From an uncultured Parvularculaceae bacterium (GTDB lineage: Bacteria; Pseudomonadota; Alphaproteobacteria; Caulobacterales; Parvularculaceae), in contig CAJXLJ010000001.1 in assembly GCA_913055785.1 (NCBI GenBank), positions 124,001 to 188,000 of the forward strand: a stretch of DNA of 64,000 nt. Direction: 5' to 3'. Shown piece after piece: positions 34,251-43,402 of the stretch (the stretch's first letter is position 1; the number at the start of each line of letters is the position of its first letter). The notes beneath the pieces are model-generated. The model did no database searches, was not told where the DNA came from, and was given only the letters and a program-made list of their open reading frames with translations. Made by a program: the position numbers and the translations under genes.

Positions 34251-34296
34251 CGCTGCCTGAGAATCCAGTAGTTGCTTGTGGTGCATCACTAAAAAA

Positions 34297-34313
34297 TTGC
34301 TGCGTCGCAGCAA
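34297..34313. promoter_or_regulatory. PhaR-type operator in front of the phasin gene
   Basis: TTGCTGC-GTC-GCAGCAA is a perfect 7-3-7 palindrome containing CTGC-N3-GCAG. This is the site type reported for PhaR, the PHA-sensing repressor of phasin genes in Rhodobacter and Paracoccus. It lies 116 bases upstream of the phasin start. phaR itself is not in the window, so the regulator is inferred. Confidence 0.7.
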
Positions 34314-34428
34314 AATTAGGGCGCGGTTTCTAATTTCCGCACCTATCTTGCCGGGGAAACAGGGAATTCAGGGCCCGATCGGCGACGCATCGCCCGAACC
34401 GGCCCTCTTAAAGGAAAGGAGCCATGAA

Positions 34429-34818
34429 ATGGCGAAGAAAACTGTGAAGATCGACACGACTCCGGCGGAAGTCCTGCGCAAGGGCTGGCTCGCCTATCTG
34501 GGCCTTTACGGCGCCGCCTATGAGCGCGTGAAGCCGCTGACGGCGAAAGCCGGCGATGCTTTCGAAGGCCTCGTCGCAAAAGGCGAAACGGTTGAAACCG
34601 GCGCTCAGGAACTGGCTGGCGGCGTACGCGCCCGCGCCCAAGGATTTTACGGCGACGGCGTCGCCCGGGTTCGCAGCGTCATGCCGAAACTCGGCGGCGG
34701 GCGCGCTCGTGTAGATGAACTCGAAGCGGAAGTCGCAGCGCTCAACAAAAAGATCGCCTCACTGACGAAAAAGCCGGCGGCGAAGCGCAAGGCGAAAGCC
34801 CGCGCGAAAGCGGCCTAA
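34429..34818 (+). CDS. Phasin-family, polyhydroxyalkanoate-granule-associated protein
   Basis: A 129-residue protein. The N-terminal half (L-R-K-G-W-L-A-Y-L-G-L-Y-G-A-A-Y-E-R) matches the phasin / poly(hydroxyalcanoate) granule-associated family. The middle is helical (D-E-L-E-A-E-V-A-A-L-N-K-K-I), and the tail is an Ala/Lys-rich basic stretch like that of PhaF, which binds DNA. AAGGAAAGGAG precedes the ATG at 34429. A PhaR-type palindrome lies upstream and a strong terminator follows, so it is an independent transcription unit, as expected for an abundant granule coat protein. Confidence 0.82.
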   Translation: MAKKTVKIDTTPAEVLRKGWLAYLGLYGAAYERVKPLTAKAGDAFEGLVAKGETVETGAQELAGGVRARAQGFYGDGVARVRSVMPKLGGGRARVDELEAEVAALNKKIASLTKKPAAKRKAKARAKAA

Positions 34819-34842
34819 GCTTTATCATGTACGGTTGCATTG

Positions 34843-34877
34843 AAAACGGGGCGCTCTTTGGCGCTCCGTTTTCTTTT
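34843..34877 (+). terminator. Strong intrinsic terminator after the first phasin gene
   Basis: A 12-bp stem (AAAACGGGGCGC / GCGCTCCGTTTT, with one G-U pair in RNA) around a 6-base loop ends in TTTTCTTTT. It separates the phasin from phaC. Confidence 0.9.
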
Positions 34878-34985
34878 GCGCCGCAACATCGGCCTTCTTA
34901 TCCTGAAGGAGCCGTTTGCGCGCTCGTGGAAAACCGCCGATACTCCCTGAAAAAACAAAACAATACCGGCCTTCAGGGAGGCGAC

Positions 34986-36665
34986 ATGGCGAAGCAGACC
35001 GACGATCTCGGCGAACAGGCCGCCGAAACCCCGACCGCGCTCAACCCGATCATCGGCCTGCGCGCATCGGAACTCATGAAGTCCCTCGGCGTCGTGATGG
35101 CTCATGCGGCGCGGCAACCGCAGCCCTTCGCGAAGCATTTCGCCGCCTACAGCAAGGATCTTTATGAGATCGTGCGCGGCAAGTCGGAGATCGCGCCGGA
35201 TAGAAAAGACCGCCGCTTTCAGGATCCGACCTGGAAATTCAACCCGGCTTACAAACTCTCGCTGCAGTCCTGGCTCGCCATGCGCAAAGGGCTTGAAGGC
35301 TGGATCGAGGATTCAGGCGTCGATGAATCAGACCGCATTCGCGCGCGCTTCATTCTCGATCTTGTCGCCGACAGCCTCGCGCCCACCAACTCCCTTGTCG
35401 GCAATCCGGCGGCGATCAAGCGGCTTTACGAAACCGGCGGCATGTCGCTCGTGAAGGGACTGAAGAACGCCTACAACGACATCCGGCACAATGGCGGCAT
35501 GCCGAGTCAGGTGGACGGACGGCCGTTCAAGGTTGGCGAAAATCTCGCAACGACGCCGGGCGCGGTCGTTTACAAAAACGAGATGCTGGAAGTGATCCAA
35601 TACATGCCGGCGACCGAAGAGGTCTACGAAATCCCCCTTCTCATCGTCCCTCCACAGATCAACAAATTCTACGCCAACGATCTCAGCCCGGACAAAAGCG
35701 TCGTACGTTATGCGCTCTCGCAAGGCTATCAGGTCTTCGCGGTCAGCTGGCGCAATCCGCAAAAACAGCATTCTCACTGGGGGCTCGAAAACTACGTTCA
35801 GTCGCTGATCGAAGCGTCTGATGCGATCCTGAAGATAACCAAGCAGAAGAAGCTCAACGTTTCCGGCGCCTGTTCAGGCGGCATTACAACCGCCTCCTAT
35901 TTAAGCGAGCTGGCCGCGCGCGGGCGCGACATCATCAACTGCTTCACCCTGCAGGTCTGCATTCTCGATCCCCACAAGGATGACAGCGAAGTTGGCCTCT
36001 TCGTCACTGACGAGGCCATCGAGGCGGCGCGGCGGCATTCCCGCAAGAAGGGCGTTCTGTCCGGGGACGCGCTCTCGCGGTCGTTTGCGTGGCTCAGACC
36101 CAACGACCTCATCTGGAACTATGTGGTCAACAATTACCTCATGGGCGACGATCCCCCGCCATTCGACATTCTCTACTGGAACAACGACTCGACTAACCTG
36201 CCTGCGCAACTCCATTCGGATTATCTCGACATTTATGGCGACAAGCGCTTTGCCGAGCCCGGGAATGTGGAGTTCATGGGCCACATGATCGACTTGCGCG
36301 AAGTTAAACAGGACTCTTTCATGGTCGCGGCGGTCACCGATCACATCACGCCCTGGCGCGCCTGTTATCGTAATGCGCATCTCTTCGGCGGGAATGTCGA
36401 GTTCGTTCTGTCGAACAGCGGTCATATTCAGGCGCTGCTCAATCCGCCCGGTAATCCGAAGGCTCAGTATTTCGCCAATTCAAATCTGCCGGAGGACGCC
36501 GACGAATGGCTCGGCGGCGCCGAACCGCAACAGGGCTCATGGTGGCCGCGCTGGACCGACTGGCTCAGCGAGCGCTCGGGCGAAAAGAAAAACGCGCCTA
36601 AGAAACTAGGCAACAAGTCCTTCCCGCCCGGCGACGAAGCGCCCGGGAAATATGTGTTCGGCTAA
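34986..36665 (+). CDS. phaC: Class II polyhydroxyalkanoate synthase
   Basis: A 559-residue polymerase that joins (R)-3-hydroxyacyl-CoA units into polyester at the granule surface. The catalytic triad is C296 (G-A-C-S-G-G-I), D452 (T-D-H-I-T-P-W) and H480 (N-S-G-H-I-Q), at the same positions as in Pseudomonas PhaC1. The length, the N-terminus (A-L-N-P-I-I-G-L-R) and segments such as L-L-I-V-P-P-Q-I-N-K-F-Y are those of class II enzymes, which prefer C6-C14 monomers. No PhaE or PhaR subunit gene is adjacent. The ATG at 34986 has GGGAGG upstream. It heads phaC-phaZ-phasin-phaD. Confidence 0.92.
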   Translation: MAKQTDDLGEQAAETPTALNPIIGLRASELMKSLGVVMAHAARQPQPFAKHFAAYSKDLYEIVRGKSEIAPDRKDRRFQDPTWKFNPAYKLSLQSWLAMRKGLEGWIEDSGVDESDRIRARFILDLVADSLAPTNSLVGNPAAIKRLYETGGMSLVKGLKNAYNDIRHNGGMPSQVDGRPFKVGENLATTPGAVVYKNEMLEVIQYMPATEEVYEIPLLIVPPQINKFYANDLSPDKSVVRYALSQGYQVFAVSWRNPQKQHSHWGLENYVQSLIEASDAILKITKQKKLNVSGACSGGITTASYLSELAARGRDIINCFTLQVCILDPHKDDSEVGLFVTDEAIEAARRHSRKKGVLSGDALSRSFAWLRPNDLIWNYVVNNYLMGDDPPPFDILYWNNDSTNLPAQLHSDYLDIYGDKRFAEPGNVEFMGHMIDLREVKQDSFMVAAVTDHITPWRACYRNAHLFGGNVEFVLSNSGHIQALLNPPGNPKAQYFANSNLPEDADEWLGGAEPQQGSWWPRWTDWLSERSGEKKNAPKKLGNKSFPPGDEAPGKYVFG

Positions 36666-36681
36666 CAGCATTGGAAAATGT

Positions 36682-37545
36682 ATGAGTACGGATAAGCCAC
36701 ACCTGCCTGAAATCCGGTTCGAGAAAATCGGCCTGCAGGAACTGCGCACGGCCATATGGCGCGGGCAAGGGATCGTCAAAAAAACGCCGCTGCTGTTTTT
36801 CAACGGCGTCGGCGCCAATCTTGAAATCGCCCAGCCGATGGGAGAGCTCCTGCGCGACCGCGACGTCATTACGTTCGACCTCCCGGGCGTCGGCGGCTCG
36901 CCGAAACCGTTAGCGCCATACCGGCCCTGGTGGGTCGCCCATGCAGCGAAGCAAATCCTCAAACGCAACGGATACGACAAGGTCGACGTGATGGGCGTCT
37001 CCTGGGGCGGCGGCGCGGCGCAACAATTCGCCTTTCAATACCAGAAACGCGTCAATCGTCTTGTCCTCGCGGCGACCTCCCCCGGCGTCATCATGGTGCC
37101 TGGCGACATGAATGCGCTTACAAAGATGGCGCACCCCATGCGCTATACGAACCAGGACTATCTCATCAAACATTTCGAGACGCTTTATGGCGACGAGCCC
37201 GGCGGCGCGCATATGTTCGCCGAGCATATGAAGCCGCCGACCGTGCGTGGATATCTCGCTCAGCTCAGCGCCATGGCGGGGTGGACGGCGCTGCCCTTCC
37301 TGCCATTGTTGCCGCATAAAACCCTCATCCTCGCCGGCAATCAGGACAAGATCGTACCGATTGCGAACGCCCATATCCTGAACTTCATGATCCGGAACTC
37401 GGAGATTTATGTGGTGAAGGGCGGCGGGCATTTGTTTCTTCTTTCGCGCGCGCATGAAATTCTCGACGTCATGCGCGGCTTTCTCGACACGCCGGCTGAC
37501 GAAGCTGGCGGCGAAATCCCGGCCGCTGCGCAAGCGGCTTCCTGA
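36682..37545 (+). CDS. phaZ: Intracellular polyhydroxyalkanoate depolymerase
   Basis: A 287-residue alpha/beta hydrolase that mobilises stored polymer. The lipase box is G-V-S107-W-G-G, and Asp and His partners are likely in L-A-G-N-Q-D-K-I-V-P and G-G-G-H-L-F-L. The early N-G-V-G-A-N-L-E and F-D-L-P-G-V-G-G-S-P-K-P segments match the depolymerase of Pseudomonas mcl-PHA clusters. It follows phaC by 16 bases, the same order as in Pseudomonas (C1-Z). The last base of its stop is the first of the next start. Confidence 0.9.
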   Translation: MSTDKPHLPEIRFEKIGLQELRTAIWRGQGIVKKTPLLFFNGVGANLEIAQPMGELLRDRDVITFDLPGVGGSPKPLAPYRPWWVAHAAKQILKRNGYDKVDVMGVSWGGGAAQQFAFQYQKRVNRLVLAATSPGVIMVPGDMNALTKMAHPMRYTNQDYLIKHFETLYGDEPGGAHMFAEHMKPPTVRGYLAQLSAMAGWTALPFLPLLPHKTLILAGNQDKIVPIANAHILNFMIRNSEIYVVKGGGHLFLLSRAHEILDVMRGFLDTPADEAGGEIPAAAQAAS

Positions 37546-38021
37546 TGGAGACGCACTTGGCCAAGAAGAAAAAGAAATCGCCGCCCCGCACGACCGATAT
37601 CGCCCGCAAGATCTGGCTCGCCGGCATCGGCGCCTATGGCAAGGCGTTCACCGAAGCGCAGGGCTCGCTCGCCAAGATGAGCGAAGAGTCCACCCGGCTG
37701 TTTGACGACCTCGTCGCCAAGGGCGAAGAGATCGAGGAAACCGTCGAAGAGCGCGGTAAGGAAATCGCCAAACGCGTCAAGGCGCAGGACTTTTCCATTG
37801 ACGACCGCATCAAGAAAATGCGGGCGCGCCTCAATCTCCGTCAGGAACGGCGCGAAGACCGGCTCGACGCGATTGAACACCGCCTTTCGGCCATCGAACA
37901 AACGCTCGCCGCCCTCGCGGAAACCGCGAGACCCCCAACCCGCAAACGACCGGCAAGAAAGACGACGGCCAAGAAGATCCCGGCAAAAAAGAAGACGGCG
38001 ACCCGAAAACGCTCTACTTAA
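37545..38021 (+). CDS. Second phasin, PhaF/PhaI-like
   Basis: A 158-residue granule-associated protein. A basic start (A-K-K-K-K-K-S) is followed by the phasin segment I-A-R-K-I-W-L-A-G-I-G-A-Y-G-K-A-F (about 19-35). A charged coiled-coil part has a heptad-like E-H-R-L-S-A-I-E-Q-T-L-A-A-L, and the C-terminal 30 residues are Lys/Arg/Ala/Pro-rich. This is the PhaF plan: a granule-binding helix plus a histone-like tail that may help distribute granules at division. The ATG at 37545 overlaps the phaZ stop by one base; a TTG at 37557 is possible. Confidence 0.85.
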   Translation: METHLAKKKKKSPPRTTDIARKIWLAGIGAYGKAFTEAQGSLAKMSEESTRLFDDLVAKGEEIEETVEERGKEIAKRVKAQDFSIDDRIKKMRARLNLRQERREDRLDAIEHRLSAIEQTLAALAETARPPTRKRPARKTTAKKIPAKKKTATRKRST

Positions 38022-38030
38022 CGCCGCAAT

Positions 38031-38675
38031 ATGGCCGGCAAAGTCAAAACCCGAGACCGCATCCTTGAAACGGCGCTCGCCCTCTTCAACGAGGAAGGCG
38101 AAGCGCAAGTCTCGACTGTCGATATCGCCGGCGTCATGGAGATCAGCCCCGGCAATCTCTATTACCATTTCCGCGGTAAAGAAGCGATTATCGAGGCGCT
38201 GTTCGATAATTTCGAAGAGGAAATGCGCCTCGTCCTGACCGCGCCGATCAACCGGCCGCTCGCCATCGAGGACAACTGGGTGTTTGTCTATATCGTCTTC
38301 GAAGAAATCAACGACTTCCGCTTTTTCTATTACGCCCTTTCCTCGATCCTCGAGCGCTGCCCGGATTTGCGCCCGCGCATGACGCGGCTGCTCAAGCTGA
38401 AGCAGGAAACGGCGAATGCTGTCCTGAAGACGCTTGAGAAAGAAAAGCTCGTTGCATTCGGCAAGGGAGAACGCGAAGCGCTCGCCATGCGGCTTGCCGC
38501 GCACCTGACTTTCTGGCTGCAATATCGCGGTCTGACTGCGCCGTCGAATGACGAGCGGGCGCACATCAATAGCGGCGTCTATGCGACCATGATGCAGATC
38601 ACCCCTTATGTGCGCGAGAACCGCGAAACATACGCCGCCATGCTTGCCGAATACTTCTCGTCCCTGGATAAGTAG
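38031..38675 (+). CDS. phaD: TetR-family regulator, PhaD-like
   Basis: A 214-residue TetR protein. The N-terminal HTH (T-R-D-R-I-L-E-T-A-L-A-L-F-N-E-E-G and I-S-P-G-N-L-Y-Y-H-F-R-G-K-E) closely resembles PhaD of Pseudomonas, an activator of phaC and phaIF that probably senses a fatty-acid intermediate. Later aromatic pairs (F-R-F-F-Y-Y) line the ligand domain. It lies 9 bases behind the second phasin and is the last gene of the cluster. Whether it activates or represses here cannot be told. Confidence 0.85.
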   Translation: MAGKVKTRDRILETALALFNEEGEAQVSTVDIAGVMEISPGNLYYHFRGKEAIIEALFDNFEEEMRLVLTAPINRPLAIEDNWVFVYIVFEEINDFRFFYYALSSILERCPDLRPRMTRLLKLKQETANAVLKTLEKEKLVAFGKGEREALAMRLAAHLTFWLQYRGLTAPSNDERAHINSGVYATMMQITPYVRENRETYAAMLAEYFSSLDK

Positions 38676-38703: not shown

Positions 38704-39462
38704 GTGTGGCTGCTGGCGGCTCTATTTTTCATCACCGCGCTTTTATACGCTTCCGTCGGCTTCGGCGGCGGCTCGACCTATAACGCGCTGCTGGTCCTAC
38801 ACGGCGCAGACTATCGCCTCCTCCCGTCGATCGCCCTGATCTGCAACATGATCGTCGTCTCCGGCGGCGTCTGGCGGTTTTCCCGCGCCGGGCATCTCTC
38901 CATTAAACGACTGGCGCCGTGGATCGCGGCCTCGGTCCCCGCTGCGCTGATCGGCGGACGACTGCCCGTATCAGAAACCTTTTTCATTGGCGCGCTCGGG
39001 TTGTCGCTCCTCGCCGCCGGATCGCGGCTGATGGTTGAGGGCGCACCCAAGGCCATTGAAGAAAAACGCGACACGCCCTTATGGATCATGCTCTCCGTCG
39101 GCGCCGGGCTCGGCTTTCTTTCAGGACTTGTCGGCATTGGCGGCGGCATTTTTCTGGCGCCGATTCTTTATCTCATGCGGTGGGACAATCCCCGCACCAT
39201 AGCCGCGGCATGCAGCTTTTTCATTCTGGTGAATTCATTGTCCGGCCTTGCAGGCCAGTTGATGAAGCTCGATGACTTCGATGCGCTGTCCGATCTTGGC
39301 GCTTATTGGCCGCTTTTTCCCGCCGTGCTGATCGGCGGACAGGTCGGCTCGCGCCTCGCCAGCGGCAATCTCAGCCCGTCGCTCATCAAGCGGCTGACCG
39401 CGGTGTTGATCCTTTACGTCGCTGCAAGACTGCTGTTCCGGTGGTTCAATCTCGTCTTCTAG
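38704..39462 (+). CDS. Sulfite exporter TauE/SafE family membrane protein
   Basis: A 252-residue inner-membrane protein with about seven to eight helices. The duplicated Gly-rich motifs (V-G-F-G-G-G-S near 18-24 and G-L-V-G-I-G-G-G-I-F near 144-153) are typical of the TauE/SafE/TSUP family. Substrates in the family include sulfite, sulfoacetate and other organic anions. The start is a GTG at 38704. Its end overlaps the convergent moeA end by 4 bp. Confidence 0.88.
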   Translation: MWLLAALFFITALLYASVGFGGGSTYNALLVLHGADYRLLPSIALICNMIVVSGGVWRFSRAGHLSIKRLAPWIAASVPAALIGGRLPVSETFFIGALGLSLLAAGSRLMVEGAPKAIEEKRDTPLWIMLSVGAGLGFLSGLVGIGGGIFLAPILYLMRWDNPRTIAAACSFFILVNSLSGLAGQLMKLDDFDALSDLGAYWPLFPAVLIGGQVGSRLASGNLSPSLIKRLTAVLILYVAARLLFRWFNLVF

Positions 39463-40652
39463 CGCAGCCAGACGATTTCAACCGCATCGCCGGCGGCGCA
39501 AGCCGGCGCATCGACTTCCCGGCGGATCAAGCAATTGGCTTTTGCAAAAGGCGACAGGAGCGAACTGTCCTGACTGGCGGCGGGCGTCACCTCATAGGCC
39601 CCCGCCTTACCCGGCGTTGCTTTGGCGCGAAGATAAGACTCGCGCCCGCCATTGGCGCTTAGGCCGGTCGTAAGAATGGCGTCGCCTGAGCCCATGGCGT
39701 CGGCTTCCAGACCGGCGAGCCGTTTCACCAGCGGCTGGAGAAACAGCGCCGCCGTAACGATGGCGGAAGCGGGATTACCCGGCAGACCGATGACGCGCGC
39801 ATCCCCCAGCCGTCCGAACCATGTCGGCTTGCCGGGGCGGACAGCGACTTTTTCGAAAACGATTTCGCCGCCCTTCGCGCGGAAGACGGACTTTACATAG
39901 TCATAGTCGCCGACCGAAGCGCCACCCACGGGAACAATAATGTCGGCGCCTTTCGCCCTTTCAAAAAAATCATCGAGCGCTTGTTCGTCGTCCGGCGCGC
40001 AGCCGAGATATTCCGGCGCGCCGCCCCAGCCTTTAGTCATCGCTGTGAGCGCGTAATGATTGGAATTTACGATCTCGCCGGCGTTGAGGGCCGCCCCGGG
40101 CTCAACCAGCTCATCGCCGTTCGAGAAAAGAGCAACCCGCGGGCGGCGATGCGTCTGCGCCGCGCTGACATTCGCCGCGGCGAGGAGCGATCCGTGGATC
40201 TCATGAAAGACCGTTCCGGCATGAACGAGAACATCGCCCTTTTGAAAATCGACGCCGGCAGCACGGACATGTTTCGGCGCATCCTGCTCCGCCTTGACCG
40301 TAATCATGTCGCCGTCGCGCGTCGCCTCTTCCTGAATGACGATGTGATCGGCGCCTTCGGGCACAACCCCGCCGGTGAATATGCGCACCGCCTCGCCCTT
40401 GCCGACAACGCCGCGGAAAGGCGCGCCGGCCGGGGCCTCGCCAATCACTTTAAGGACCGCGCCTTTTTGCGCGTCACCGAAACGAACCGCATAACCGTCC
40501 ATGGCGGAAGCTGCGAAGGGCGGTTGCGTCAGGCGGGCTTTGACATCCTCGGCGGCAACCCGCCCGGGAAGCGCCGACAACGCAATCTCTTCGCCGCCCA
40601 AAGGCTCTGCACGATCCAAAATCGCGGCGATCGCTTCCTCGACGCTCAGCAT
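39459..40652 (-). CDS. moeA: Molybdopterin molybdotransferase
   Basis: A 397-residue enzyme that inserts molybdate into adenylylated molybdopterin. The sequence P-P-F-A-A-S-A-M-D-G-Y-A-V near 43-55 is the MoeA signature, and V-P-V-G-G-A-S-V-G-D-Y-D is the MoCF/MogA-like loop. Domains follow the usual MoeA N, MoCF_biosynth and MoeA C order. It is the last gene of the moa-moe operon, 12 bases after moaC. Confidence 0.95.
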   Translation of the reverse strand: MLSVEEAIAAILDRAEPLGGEEIALSALPGRVAAEDVKARLTQPPFAASAMDGYAVRFGDAQKGAVLKVIGEAPAGAPFRGVVGKGEAVRIFTGGVVPEGADHIVIQEEATRDGDMITVKAEQDAPKHVRAAGVDFQKGDVLVHAGTVFHEIHGSLLAAANVSAAQTHRRPRVALFSNGDELVEPGAALNAGEIVNSNHYALTAMTKGWGGAPEYLGCAPDDEQALDDFFERAKGADIIVPVGGASVGDYDYVKSVFRAKGGEIVFEKVAVRPGKPTWFGRLGDARVIGLPGNPASAIVTAALFLQPLVKRLAGLEADAMGSGDAILTTGLSANGGRESYLRAKATPGKAGAYEVTPAASQDSSLLSPFAKANCLIRREVDAPACAAGDAVEIVWLR

Positions 40653-40664
40653 CGCATGTCGTCC

Positions 40665-41147
40665 TTACGCTTTGCGCCTGTAGTCGCCGGATTTACCGCC
40701 TGACTTCTCAACCAGCATGACGTCCGTAATTGTCATCGACTTATCGACCGCCTTCGCCATGTCGTAAATCGTCAGACAGGCCGTCATGACAGCCGTGAGC
40801 GCTTCCATCTCAACGCCGGTTTTGCCGCTGGTTTTGACTTCAGCCGTCACAACGAATGCATGTGCACCGTCGTCCGGTTCGACAGTGACATTCAGTCCGG
40901 TAATCGGCAAAGGGTGGCATAGAGGAATGAGATCGGCGGTGCGCTTCGCGCCCAGAACGCCGGCAAGCTCGGCGACGCCGCCTATATCGCCTTTTTTGAC
41001 GCCTGCTTCACGCACGGTCTTGTATGACTCCGCCGAAAAAACAACGCGCCCTTGCGCAAGGGCGCGCCGCGCCGTGTCGGCTTTATCCGAGACGTCGACC
41101 ATACGCGGCCGCCCCTTCTCGTCGAAATGAGAAAGATCTTTTGTCAT
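40665..41147 (-). CDS. moaC: Cyclic pyranopterin monophosphate synthase
   Basis: A 160-residue hexameric enzyme that completes conversion of the MoaA product to cPMP. It begins [16 protein letters not shown] and carries [10 protein letters not shown] and V-E-M-E-A-L-T-A-V, both diagnostic. The ATG at 41147 overlaps the moaB stop by 4 bp and gives the family length. Confidence 0.96.
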
Positions 41148-41674
41148 TCTTCCATCAGCCGCGGCATCAACTCCACCAGATTGCACGGGCGATGACGGGA
41201 ATCGAGTTGATGGACAATAACCTTGTCCCAACCGTCTTTCACCGCGCCGTTGGAGCCCGGCAGCGCAAAAATAAAGGTGCCTTTCGCCACGCCGGCGCAA
41301 GCGCGCGACTGCAAGGTCGACAACCCTACCGACTGAAAGCTCACCTGATGAAAGATAACGGAGAATCCCTGGATTTCCTTTTCAAAAAGCGGCGTCACCG
41401 CTTCCGGTGTTACGTCCCGCCCGGTCAGCCCTGTACCGCCGGTCGAGACCACCACATCGACTTCCGGATCGTCGATCCAGCCGGAAACCGTTTTCTGAAT
41501 GATTGCCTTGTCGTCGGGCACAAGTTCGCGCGCTGCAAGCTGGTGTCCGGCCTCTGCAATGCGCTGCGCAAGAATATCGCCGGATGTGTCTGTCGCCCGC
41601 GTGCGGCTGTCAGTAACCGTCAACACCGCGATGCGGACAGGTTTGAATTCGAGACTCTCGTTGATGCCATGCAT
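41144..41674 (-). CDS. moaB: Molybdenum cofactor protein MoaB
   Basis: A 176-residue MoCF-fold protein that probably adenylylates molybdopterin, in place of MogA. Key loops are [11 protein letters not shown] and [12 protein letters not shown] take the ATG at 41674 because AGGA lies at good spacing; an ATG at 41704 would run 28 bases into moaE. The stop overlaps moaC. Confidence 0.94.
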
Positions 41675-41676
41675 TC

Positions 41677-42141
41677 CTAGTTTGTATCCTTTGCTCCATC
41701 CCAACGGCGCGCATCATTGTAATCGCTTTCCCTTGGTTCAATCCACGCCTCGCCGTCTTCGCGCATTTCCTTTTTCCAGAACATGGCTTCAGTCTTGAGA
41801 TAGTCCATCAGATAGTCGGCGGCCTCAAAAGCGTCCCGGCGATGCGCGGCGCCGACCGCCACCAGCACGATCGCCTCTCCGGGCGCAAGGCGCCCAACCC
41901 GGTGAATAATCAGCGGCTCGTCAATCGCCCAGCGCGCTGTCGCCTCCGTTACGATTTTGGCCATCGTTTTTTCGGTGACGCCCGGATAGTGTTCCAGCTC
42001 GAGCGCCGTTACGGCGCCGCCTTTTGAGCCACTGCGCACCTTGCCGAGAAAGCTGACGACCGCGCCGGCGGTTTCGCATGACCTTTCATAGGCCTTAAGT
42101 TCGCCGGCAGGATCGAAAGGCTCGGAAGCGACGCGAATCAT
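41677..42141 (-). CDS. moaE: Molybdopterin synthase catalytic subunit
   Basis: A 154-residue subunit that, with MoaD, turns cPMP into molybdopterin by adding two sulfurs. F-L-G-K-V-R, L-E-L-E-H-Y-P-G-V-T-E and a late F-W-K-K-E, which supplies active-site lysines, are present. The ATG at 42141 lies five bases after the moaD stop. A longer start would overlap moaD heavily. Confidence 0.95.
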   Translation of the reverse strand: MIRVASEPFDPAGELKAYERSCETAGAVVSFLGKVRSGSKGGAVTALELEHYPGVTEKTMAKIVTEATARWAIDEPLIIHRVGRLAPGEAIVLVAVGAAHRRDAFEAADYLMDYLKTEAMFWKKEMREDGEAWIEPRESDYNDARRWDGAKDTN

Positions 42142-42146
42142 CTGCC

Positions 42147-42398
42147 TCACCCGCCGCTTACCGGCGGCAAAAAAGCGATCTCGTCGCAATCCGTCACCGC
42201 TGTATCGCCTGCTACGAGCGCTTCGTTAACCGCATAGCGCACGGATTTGTCTTTCAGCGCCGCGCCGAGCGCTTCGTCTTCAGCTGCGATAGCCTCGATC
42301 AATATCGAAAGCGTCGCCACATCGCCGGTGACCGTCATATCGCGCGTCCTGCCGCCTGCGATATCGCCGAGCCTGCCGAAGAATAGCAGCCGCGCCAC
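42147..42398 (-). CDS. moaD: Molybdopterin synthase sulfur carrier subunit
   Basis: An 83-residue ubiquitin-like protein ending in V-S-G-G. The C-terminal Gly-Gly is thiocarboxylated and donates sulfur. The conserved I-A-F-L-P-P-V-S-G-G tail makes the assignment firm. It lies between moaA and moaE. Confidence 0.95.
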   Translation of the reverse strand: MARLLFFGRLGDIAGGRTRDMTVTGDVATLSILIEAIAAEDEALGAALKDKSVRYAVNEALVAGDTAVTDCDEIAFLPPVSGG

Positions 42399-42400
42399 GC

Positions 42401-43402
42401 CTAACCCCCCGTCACTGACATATGCCGGTCGAGCGCCGGCGCAGTCCCAGGTTCGGCGATTTCGAAATGATGCCGTTCGGGCTTCTTGAGCATCGCCTGA
42501 TCGAGCGCGGCGTTGAGCGCTTCATGCGGATTGTCGCCACGCAAGGCCGCGCGCAGATCGAGGCGATCCGAATGACCGAGGCACATATAGATTTGGCCCG
42601 TGCATGTGACGCGCACGCGGTTGCAGCCGGCGCAGAAATTATTCGTCAGAGGCGTAATGAACCCGATGACGCCGCCCGTCTCTGCAACGCGCATATATCG
42701 CGCCGGCCCGCCGGTGCGTTTGTCGATCCCTTCCAATGTCCAGCGGGTTTCGAGATCGCTCATCGCTTCAGACAAGGGCAGGTACTGATCGAAGCGGTCT
42801 TCCTCAATCTCGCCCAGCGGCATGATCTCGATAAGGGTCAATTCCATGCCGCGGCCATGAGCCCACTCAATCATTGACGGCAGTTCGGCGCGGTTCAAAT
42901 CCTTGAGCGCCACCGTGTTGATCTTGATCTTGAGGCCGGCTTCCTGTGCAGCCTCGATACCGGCGAGGACCTGACTCAACGCATTTCGGCGCGTCAGTTT
43001 CCGAAACTTCTCATCGTCGAGCGTGTCGAGTGAGATATTGATCCGTTCAACCCCTGCGGCTTTGAGGTCTTTCGCATGGCGCGCAAGCTGCGTCCCGTTT
43101 GTGGTGAGCGTCAGCTCATCAAGGCCGCGTCCGAGACGGCTTCCCAGCTTCCCGAACAGGGTCATCACATCCCGGCGCACGAGCGGCTCGCCGCCGGTGA
43201 TGCGGATTTTCTTTACGCCGCGTTCGATGAAAGCCCCGGCGAGGCGCTCAAGCTCCTCAAGGGTTAACACTTCGCGCTTCGGCAGGAAGCGCATCTCCTC
43301 CGCCATGCAGTAGGCGCAACGCAAGTCGCACCGGTCCGTTACCGAAAGACGCAGATATGTGATCTCACGGCCGAACGCATCGCGAAGGGAATTCAAGGAC
43401 AT
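42401..43402 (-). CDS. moaA: GTP 3',8-cyclase (radical SAM)
   Basis: A 333-residue radical-SAM enzyme that starts molybdopterin synthesis from GTP. The SAM cluster is C-D-L-R-C-A-Y-C near 24-31. The second cluster is formed by the later C-A-G-C-N-R-V-R and a following Cys (C-L-G). The C-terminal Gly-Gly needed for catalysis is present. First gene of the moaA-D-E-B-C-moeA operon, and its likely target enzyme, formate dehydrogenase, is 3 kb away. Confidence 0.96.

Follow-up and report, generated by a model that had tools for sequence, protein, structure and literature searches.

The locus described here, positions 34297-38675 of a 64,000-nucleotide stretch of DNA (the window) from an uncultured Parvularculaceae bacterium, carries five polyhydroxyalkanoate (PHA) genes on the plus strand, as originally predicted: a phasin gene, phaC, phaZ, a PhaF-like phasin gene and a gene for a PhaD-like TetR-family regulator. 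Class II PHA synthases are usually regarded as a Pseudomonas feature. Judging from the sequence comparisons below, this locus is an old alphaproteobacterial class II lineage and not a recent Pseudomonas import, because it belongs to a separate clade that extends across many families and has native base composition. Two regulators, the putatively polymer-sensing PhaR and the putatively fatty-acid-linked PhaD, appear to act next to each other on its phasin promoter. In the explanation that we favor, and consider likely as a whole, PhaD would activate the phasin gene and PhaR would repress both the phasin gene and phaC until titrated by polymer, the class II-type locus having been largely vertically maintained, with frequent loss, beside a class I/polyhydroxybutyrate (PHB) system.

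The phasin promoter comprises the following predicted elements:

34296-34314, strand not assigned: PhaR-type operator 1, ATTGCTGCGTCGCAGCAAA, with core TGCRNYGCA and AT-rich arms, called from its match to published PhaR motifs, its conservation and its enrichment in the genome.
34315-34334, strand not assigned: PhaD-type operator, ATTAGG-N8-TCTAAT, called with a Pseudomonas-trained position weight matrix (PWM) and from its enrichment in pha promoters.
34344-34349, plus strand: predicted -10 element, TATCTT; CCTATCT is invariant in 10 aligned loci.

The perfect CTGC-N3-GCAG sequence that had been claimed for the first phasin gene was located at 34300-34310, within a perfect 17-bp palindrome, TTGCTGCGTCGCAGCAA (34297-34313). 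Operator 1 matches both the PhaR sequence CTGCN3GCAG of R. sphaeroides, CTGCNNNGCAG, and the S. meliloti PhaR motif with its AT-rich arms (PMC12542648). The short palindrome alone was dropped as evidence, its 8-base core being common (three copies in the window vs 1.4 expected, not significant). The extended form TTGCTGC-N3-GCAGCA, on the other hand, has a single exact copy in the 3.26-Mb genome (85 contigs), and TGC-RNY-GCA with T-rich and A-rich arms occupies the same spot in all 10 aligned loci, which belong to two sister genera of the Parvularculaceae (g1 and g4). Operator 1 is absent in a third genus and in the sister family; it is the PhaR operator that looks added to the class II locus in the two sister genera. 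A second PhaR-type site, overlooked by the original prediction along with the PhaD-type operator, was found between the phasin gene and phaC, where the predicted elements are:

34842-34873, plus strand: intrinsic terminator 3′ of the phasin gene (fold -26.6 kcal/mol, z -4.95).
34876-34886, strand not assigned: PhaR-type operator 2, TTGCGCCGCAA, upstream of phaC; TGC-N3-GCA is invariant in 10/10 loci.
34915-34944, plus strand: predicted phaC promoter, TTTGCG-N18-GATACT; TTTGC and ATACT are invariant in the 10 aligned loci.

In all 10 loci, operator 2 stands between the phasin terminator and the conserved phaC promoter. The terminator itself, another element of the original prediction that was borne out, keeps its stem in every one of them.

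A candidate regulator for these sites is encoded in the same genome, where a phaR gene scored 159.6 bits with TIGR01848 (cut-off, 109.45). Genome-wide, the pattern WNWNNTGCRNYGCANNWNW yielded 19 matches vs 3 for the reversed control pattern. PhaR-type motifs were found in the phaR/phaAB gap, in a Phasin_2 gene promoter and upstream of gltA-, glnA-, amtB- and bdhA-like genes, the names being read from translations (G000:C44:4818, C8:19547, C60:6305 and 6452, C1:120727). PhaR targets in S. meliloti include phasins and a gltA site (PMC12542648). The distribution of the motif suggests that PhaR may connect the state of the polymer with the metabolism of carbon and nitrogen in this bacterium. It also bears on another reading of the palindrome, as a minus-strand terminator or a chance palindrome unrelated to PhaR. 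On the minus strand, the sequence does form a 7-pair hairpin followed by TTTTTT, and its short core is not rare; however, no minus-strand gene ends at the palindrome, the same motif recurs at phaR/phaAB and at the Phasin_2 gene, and what is kept in the 10 loci is TGC-RNY-GCA with AT arms and not the perfect hairpin. We therefore regard a terminator or chance origin as highly improbable.

The PhaD-type operator was scored with a PWM built solely from Pseudomonas PphaC1 sites. The window site reached 25.3, the best of 20 shuffles scoring 8.7. Strong sites were found upstream of the phasin gene in most alphaproteobacterial loci, in both of the gene arrangements described below. Exact matches to the motif number 34 in the 79 kb of DNA taken from pha promoters vs 3 in 1.48 Mb elsewhere, a 211-fold enrichment. 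Alignment of the phasin promoters shows a second conserved block, TTAGR-N8-YCTAA, with the -10 element lying 10 bases further downstream, and the same 10-bp spacing separates CTAA from CATACT in most of the Pseudomonas PphaC1 sequences inspected. The P. putida PhaD footprint reportedly consists of two 6-bp half-sites with 8 bp between them, an architecture that the window site fits. Among the Pseudomonas loci sampled, the ATTAGG-N8-TCTAAT element is located upstream of phaC1; it also lies near phaI in the one locus examined. In reviews, PhaD is described as binding and activating the phaC1 and phaI promoters of Pseudomonas (PMC9049629, PMC7204398), activation being reported for P. putida (PMC9049629).

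Only one base separates the end of the PhaR palindrome (34313) from the start of the PhaD dyad (34315). The sites overlap and have bases in common in six Aquidulcibacter-type loci (AATGCTGC-RNY-GCAGCATTTAGTATGCGCTTTCTAA; four different centers, all RNY). Such adjacent or overlapping sites suggest competition between PhaR and PhaD. That two control systems may act on one locus, as had been proposed, is strongly supported by sequence footprinting, the two operators lying even closer together than was anticipated. What the sequence shows is the genes, the operators with their conservation and spacing, and a phaR gene in the genome; binding by PhaR and PhaD, the sign of each regulator and the type of polymer are inferred. 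In the favored scheme, PhaD would bind 34315-34334, covering the -35 region in the phasin promoter, and activate transcription on a fatty-acid signal, and PhaR, the presumed repressor of the host PHB system, would bind 34296-34314 and 34876-34886. When polymer is lacking, free PhaR would hold the phasin and phaC promoters down, at the phasin gene probably by excluding PhaD; polymer formation would then titrate PhaR, allowing PhaD to act and expression to rise.

The proteins encoded by the locus are as follows:

34429-34818, plus strand: first phasin, 129 aa, with a Lys/Ala-rich tail (NCBIfam phasin-related domain, E 1.4e-7).
34986-36665, plus strand: PhaC, class II-type PHA synthase, 559 aa, with C296, D452 and H480 (TIGR01839, 736 bits; tree; triad).
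36682-37545, plus strand: PhaZ, medium-chain-length (mcl)-type intracellular PHA depolymerase, 287 aa (TIGR02240, 197 bits).
37545-38021, plus strand: PhaF-like phasin, 158 aa (46 bits with Pfam Phasin PF05597, which exceeds the cut-off).
38031-38675, plus strand: PhaD-like TetR-family regulator, 214 aa (PF13972 and PF00440).

The origin of the locus was approached through a PhaC tree of 82 rows with class I enzymes as outgroup. Class II enzymes, the window PhaC among them, occupied one side of the tree, with 100% support for the split from class I, in agreement with the class originally assigned; no grouping with class I enzymes was seen, and phaR is present in the genome. Fifty-two alphaproteobacterial rows including the window clustered together (98%), distinct from all Pseudomonas rows (100%), and the PhaZ and PhaD trees likewise separated alphaproteobacterial from Pseudomonas sequences (100% each). 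Members of the clade come from Parvularculaceae, Robiginitomaculaceae, Hyphomonadaceae, Aquidulcibacter-type bacteria, Caulobacteraceae, Kordiimonas and Sphingomonadales, and a class II-type PhaC was found in all five families of the order (200 genomes). The source genome is that of a Marinicaulis/Hyphococcus-like marine alphaproteobacterium, and the closest named loci are 82% identical in PhaC. Two gene arrangements were recognized. In arrangement A (phasin-C-Z-F-D, all in the same orientation; Parvularculaceae, most Robiginitomaculaceae-type genomes, Kordiimonas and Tepidicaulis), an orthologue of the first phasin stands at the same position; arrangement B (phasin, divergent phaD, then phaC-phaZ) is that of Hyphomonadaceae, Aquidulcibacter-type bacteria and Caulobacteraceae. 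Two contigs from metagenome-assembled genomes labelled Acidobacteria (L138, L139) also carry a Hyphomonas-like pha cluster and are probably mis-binned.

These data do not support the transferred Pseudomonas mcl-PHA cluster, captured by host PhaR control, that the original prediction had envisaged. PhaC, PhaZ, PhaD and the PhaD operator are indeed all Pseudomonas-like, and the cluster is patchy within the genus. However, the three proteins fall into alphaproteobacterial groups separate from Pseudomonas at 98-100%, and the cluster is widespread, occurring in Kordiimonas, Tepidicaulis and sphingomonads in addition to five or more families of the order. PhaC identity drops with kinship (about 80, 78, 72, 66, 59 and 56%), the guanine-plus-cytosine content of the cluster is native (59.0% vs 59.7% for the window), and the gene order is unlike that of Pseudomonas. 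A recent transfer is thus very improbable. It is a different matter whether an alphaproteobacterium and the Pseudomonas lineage exchanged the class II module in the distant past, the alphaproteobacterium possibly being the donor; to this we give somewhat less than an even chance. Class II matches are broad in Alphaproteobacteria and, among the other Pseudomonadota sampled, confined to a Pseudomonas-like family (f45), and the operator and its promoter spacing are common to both lineages. Against this, three alphaproteobacterial PhaCs, which come from families f13 and f16, join Pseudomonas in the tree with weak support (83%). Such an exchange would belong to the deep history of the module and is compatible with the explanation favored here.

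The window PhaC scored 736 bits with the class II model vs 520 with the class I model and is about 47-54% identical to Pseudomonas enzymes; the claimed triad C296, D452 and H480 is invariant in a 16-sequence alignment of mixed alphaproteobacterial and Pseudomonas class II enzymes. A class I-type phaC, sought together with phaR, was found on another contig of the same genome, its product being 39% identical to the class II-type PhaC. PhaZ is 40-43% identical to Pseudomonas PhaZ. The PhaD-like protein belongs to the TetR family, is encoded within the pha cluster and is orthologous to Pseudomonas PhaD (33-37% identity), with which it has a nearly identical recognition helix, ISPGNLYYHF, in common. 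Positions E130, S325, S477 and Q481 are known to affect specificity or activity (PMC6403647, PMC3815930). Nearly all alphaproteobacterial class II-type PhaCs have Cys325 (in the window, codon 325 of 34986-36662), vs Ser325 in every sampled Pseudomonas PhaC1 and PhaC2, and the clade has Asp at the E130 position, so that the window PhaC differs from Pseudomonas PhaC1 at C325 and D129; the S477 and Q481 positions are mostly Pseudomonas-like. Because of the Asp and Cys residues, a mixed short- and medium-chain polymer is a plausible product of this enzyme, the medium-chain product originally claimed, for which class II kinship alone would speak, being not established. MaoC-type hydratases are encoded in the genome, and an (R)-hydratase route of monomer supply is possible; a profile search for the FAS1-dehydratase type (PF13452) returned nothing useful.

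The Asp and Cys residues raise the possibility that the synthase makes mainly short-chain or mixed, PHB-rich polymer, the locus then serving the PHB granule and not a separate mcl-PHA granule. Changes at the E130 and S325 positions shift Pseudomonas PhaC1 towards short-chain monomers, and PhaR control would fit a shared granule. Also in keeping with it, phasin-phaF-phaD is retained in four species of the same genus that lack phaC and phaZ (L257 5837-7567, L258 7029-8760, L259 1-1560, L260 2670-4444), likely through loss of the synthase/depolymerase pair; PhaR- and PhaD-type sites are both kept in the three with readable promoters. Two of these four genomes are complete and have a class I-type PhaC as their sole synthase, which suggests that PHB granules can be served by the phasin part. 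On the other side, the S477 and Q481 positions agree with those of Pseudomonas, and the effect of Cys325 was not confirmed in the literature searched. We hold a PHB-rich product to be a minority possibility, one to be taken seriously. A more specific proposal, advanced tentatively and with slightly more doubt than belief, is that a composite PhaR-PhaD operator, with repressor and activator competing for neighboring or overlapping DNA, was assembled separately in Parvularculaceae and in Aquidulcibacter-type bacteria, that phasin expression would need both precursor signal and polymer, and that some relatives may retain the phasin/PhaD part as a PHB-granule accessory after losing the synthase and depolymerase.

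Outside the pha locus, a PhaD-type operator was noted at G000:C11:53229-53246 (L210 6230), about 70-90 bp upstream of a gene for a 594-aa acyl-CoA dehydrogenase. With up to one mismatch, the motif is present in this promoter in 9/10 genus members with phaD vs 0/7 without. A third perfect copy (G000:C28:23756-23773; L199) lies near another TetR-family gene and may be the own site of that regulator, or chance.

Several observations weigh against the favored explanation. Three of the profile matches fall below their curated cut-offs: the NCBIfam match of the first phasin, for which a profile search also gave no Pfam match; PhaZ (197 bits; cut-off, 250.6); and PhaC (736 bits; TIGR01839 cut-off, 855.4). 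The TIGR01839 cut-off was passed only by one Pseudomonas-like family among 398 sampled genomes, and all alphaproteobacterial members score below it, which is why the window enzyme is called class II-type and placed in a separate subclade. In arrangement-B loci, the PWM scan mostly found no clear PhaD site upstream of phaC itself, and the phasin promoter of one locus (L042) gave a weak PhaD match only. Some of the PhaR-motif matches in the genome lie inside genes. The association of phaD with the acyl-CoA dehydrogenase site (Fisher, 0.0004) comes down to 1 to 4 independent pairs and is not significant, and one genome (G010) has phaD and lacks the site; as statistical proof of PhaD targeting, this site was rejected for want of independent events. 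Finally, the repressor role given to PhaR and the activator role given to PhaD are carried over by analogy from other species.

The pha locus is flanked by glpK and a TauE-type gene. Molybdenum cofactor genes adjoin it on the minus strand at 39459-43402 (moeA, moaC, moaB/mog-type, moaE, moaD and moaA, assigned by eye).

Compared with the Pseudomonas mcl-PHA locus (phaC1-phaZ-phaC2-phaD, with phaF-phaI opposite), the locus likewise has a class II synthase, a PhaZ of the same family, a PhaF-type phasin and a PhaD TetR regulator, and its PhaD-type operator is equally far from the -10 element. Unlike the Pseudomonas locus, with which it had been described as sharing its gene order, it is not collinear: it has a single synthase and no phaC2, begins with the phasin gene, runs on a single strand and encodes Cys325, while its PhaD operator lies on the phasin promoter and not on that of phaC1, and PhaR sites are added. 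With the PhaR/AniA regulons of S. meliloti, R. sphaeroides and P. denitrificans, the genome has in common a phaR gene and, at the phasin, phaR/phaAB and gltA promoters, TGCRNYGCA flanked by AT-rich arms; it differs in that PhaR sites also occur on the class II locus, one of them beside the PhaD operator. In the literature searched, subscription literature lying outside the search, we found no description of the alphaproteobacterial class II clade or of the PhaR/PhaD tandem.

In these findings, class II synthases make up a broad clade of Alphaproteobacteria in which a PhaD-type operator is conserved, and one candidate sequence for the PhaD operator is common to two classes of bacteria. The clade offers new enzymes, with a natural Cys325, for mixed polymers, and the tandem PhaR/PhaD site would allow a direct test of how polymer-level and precursor-linked signals are combined at one promoter. 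More generally, the locus would illustrate the way in which existing host controls can take charge of a storage pathway.

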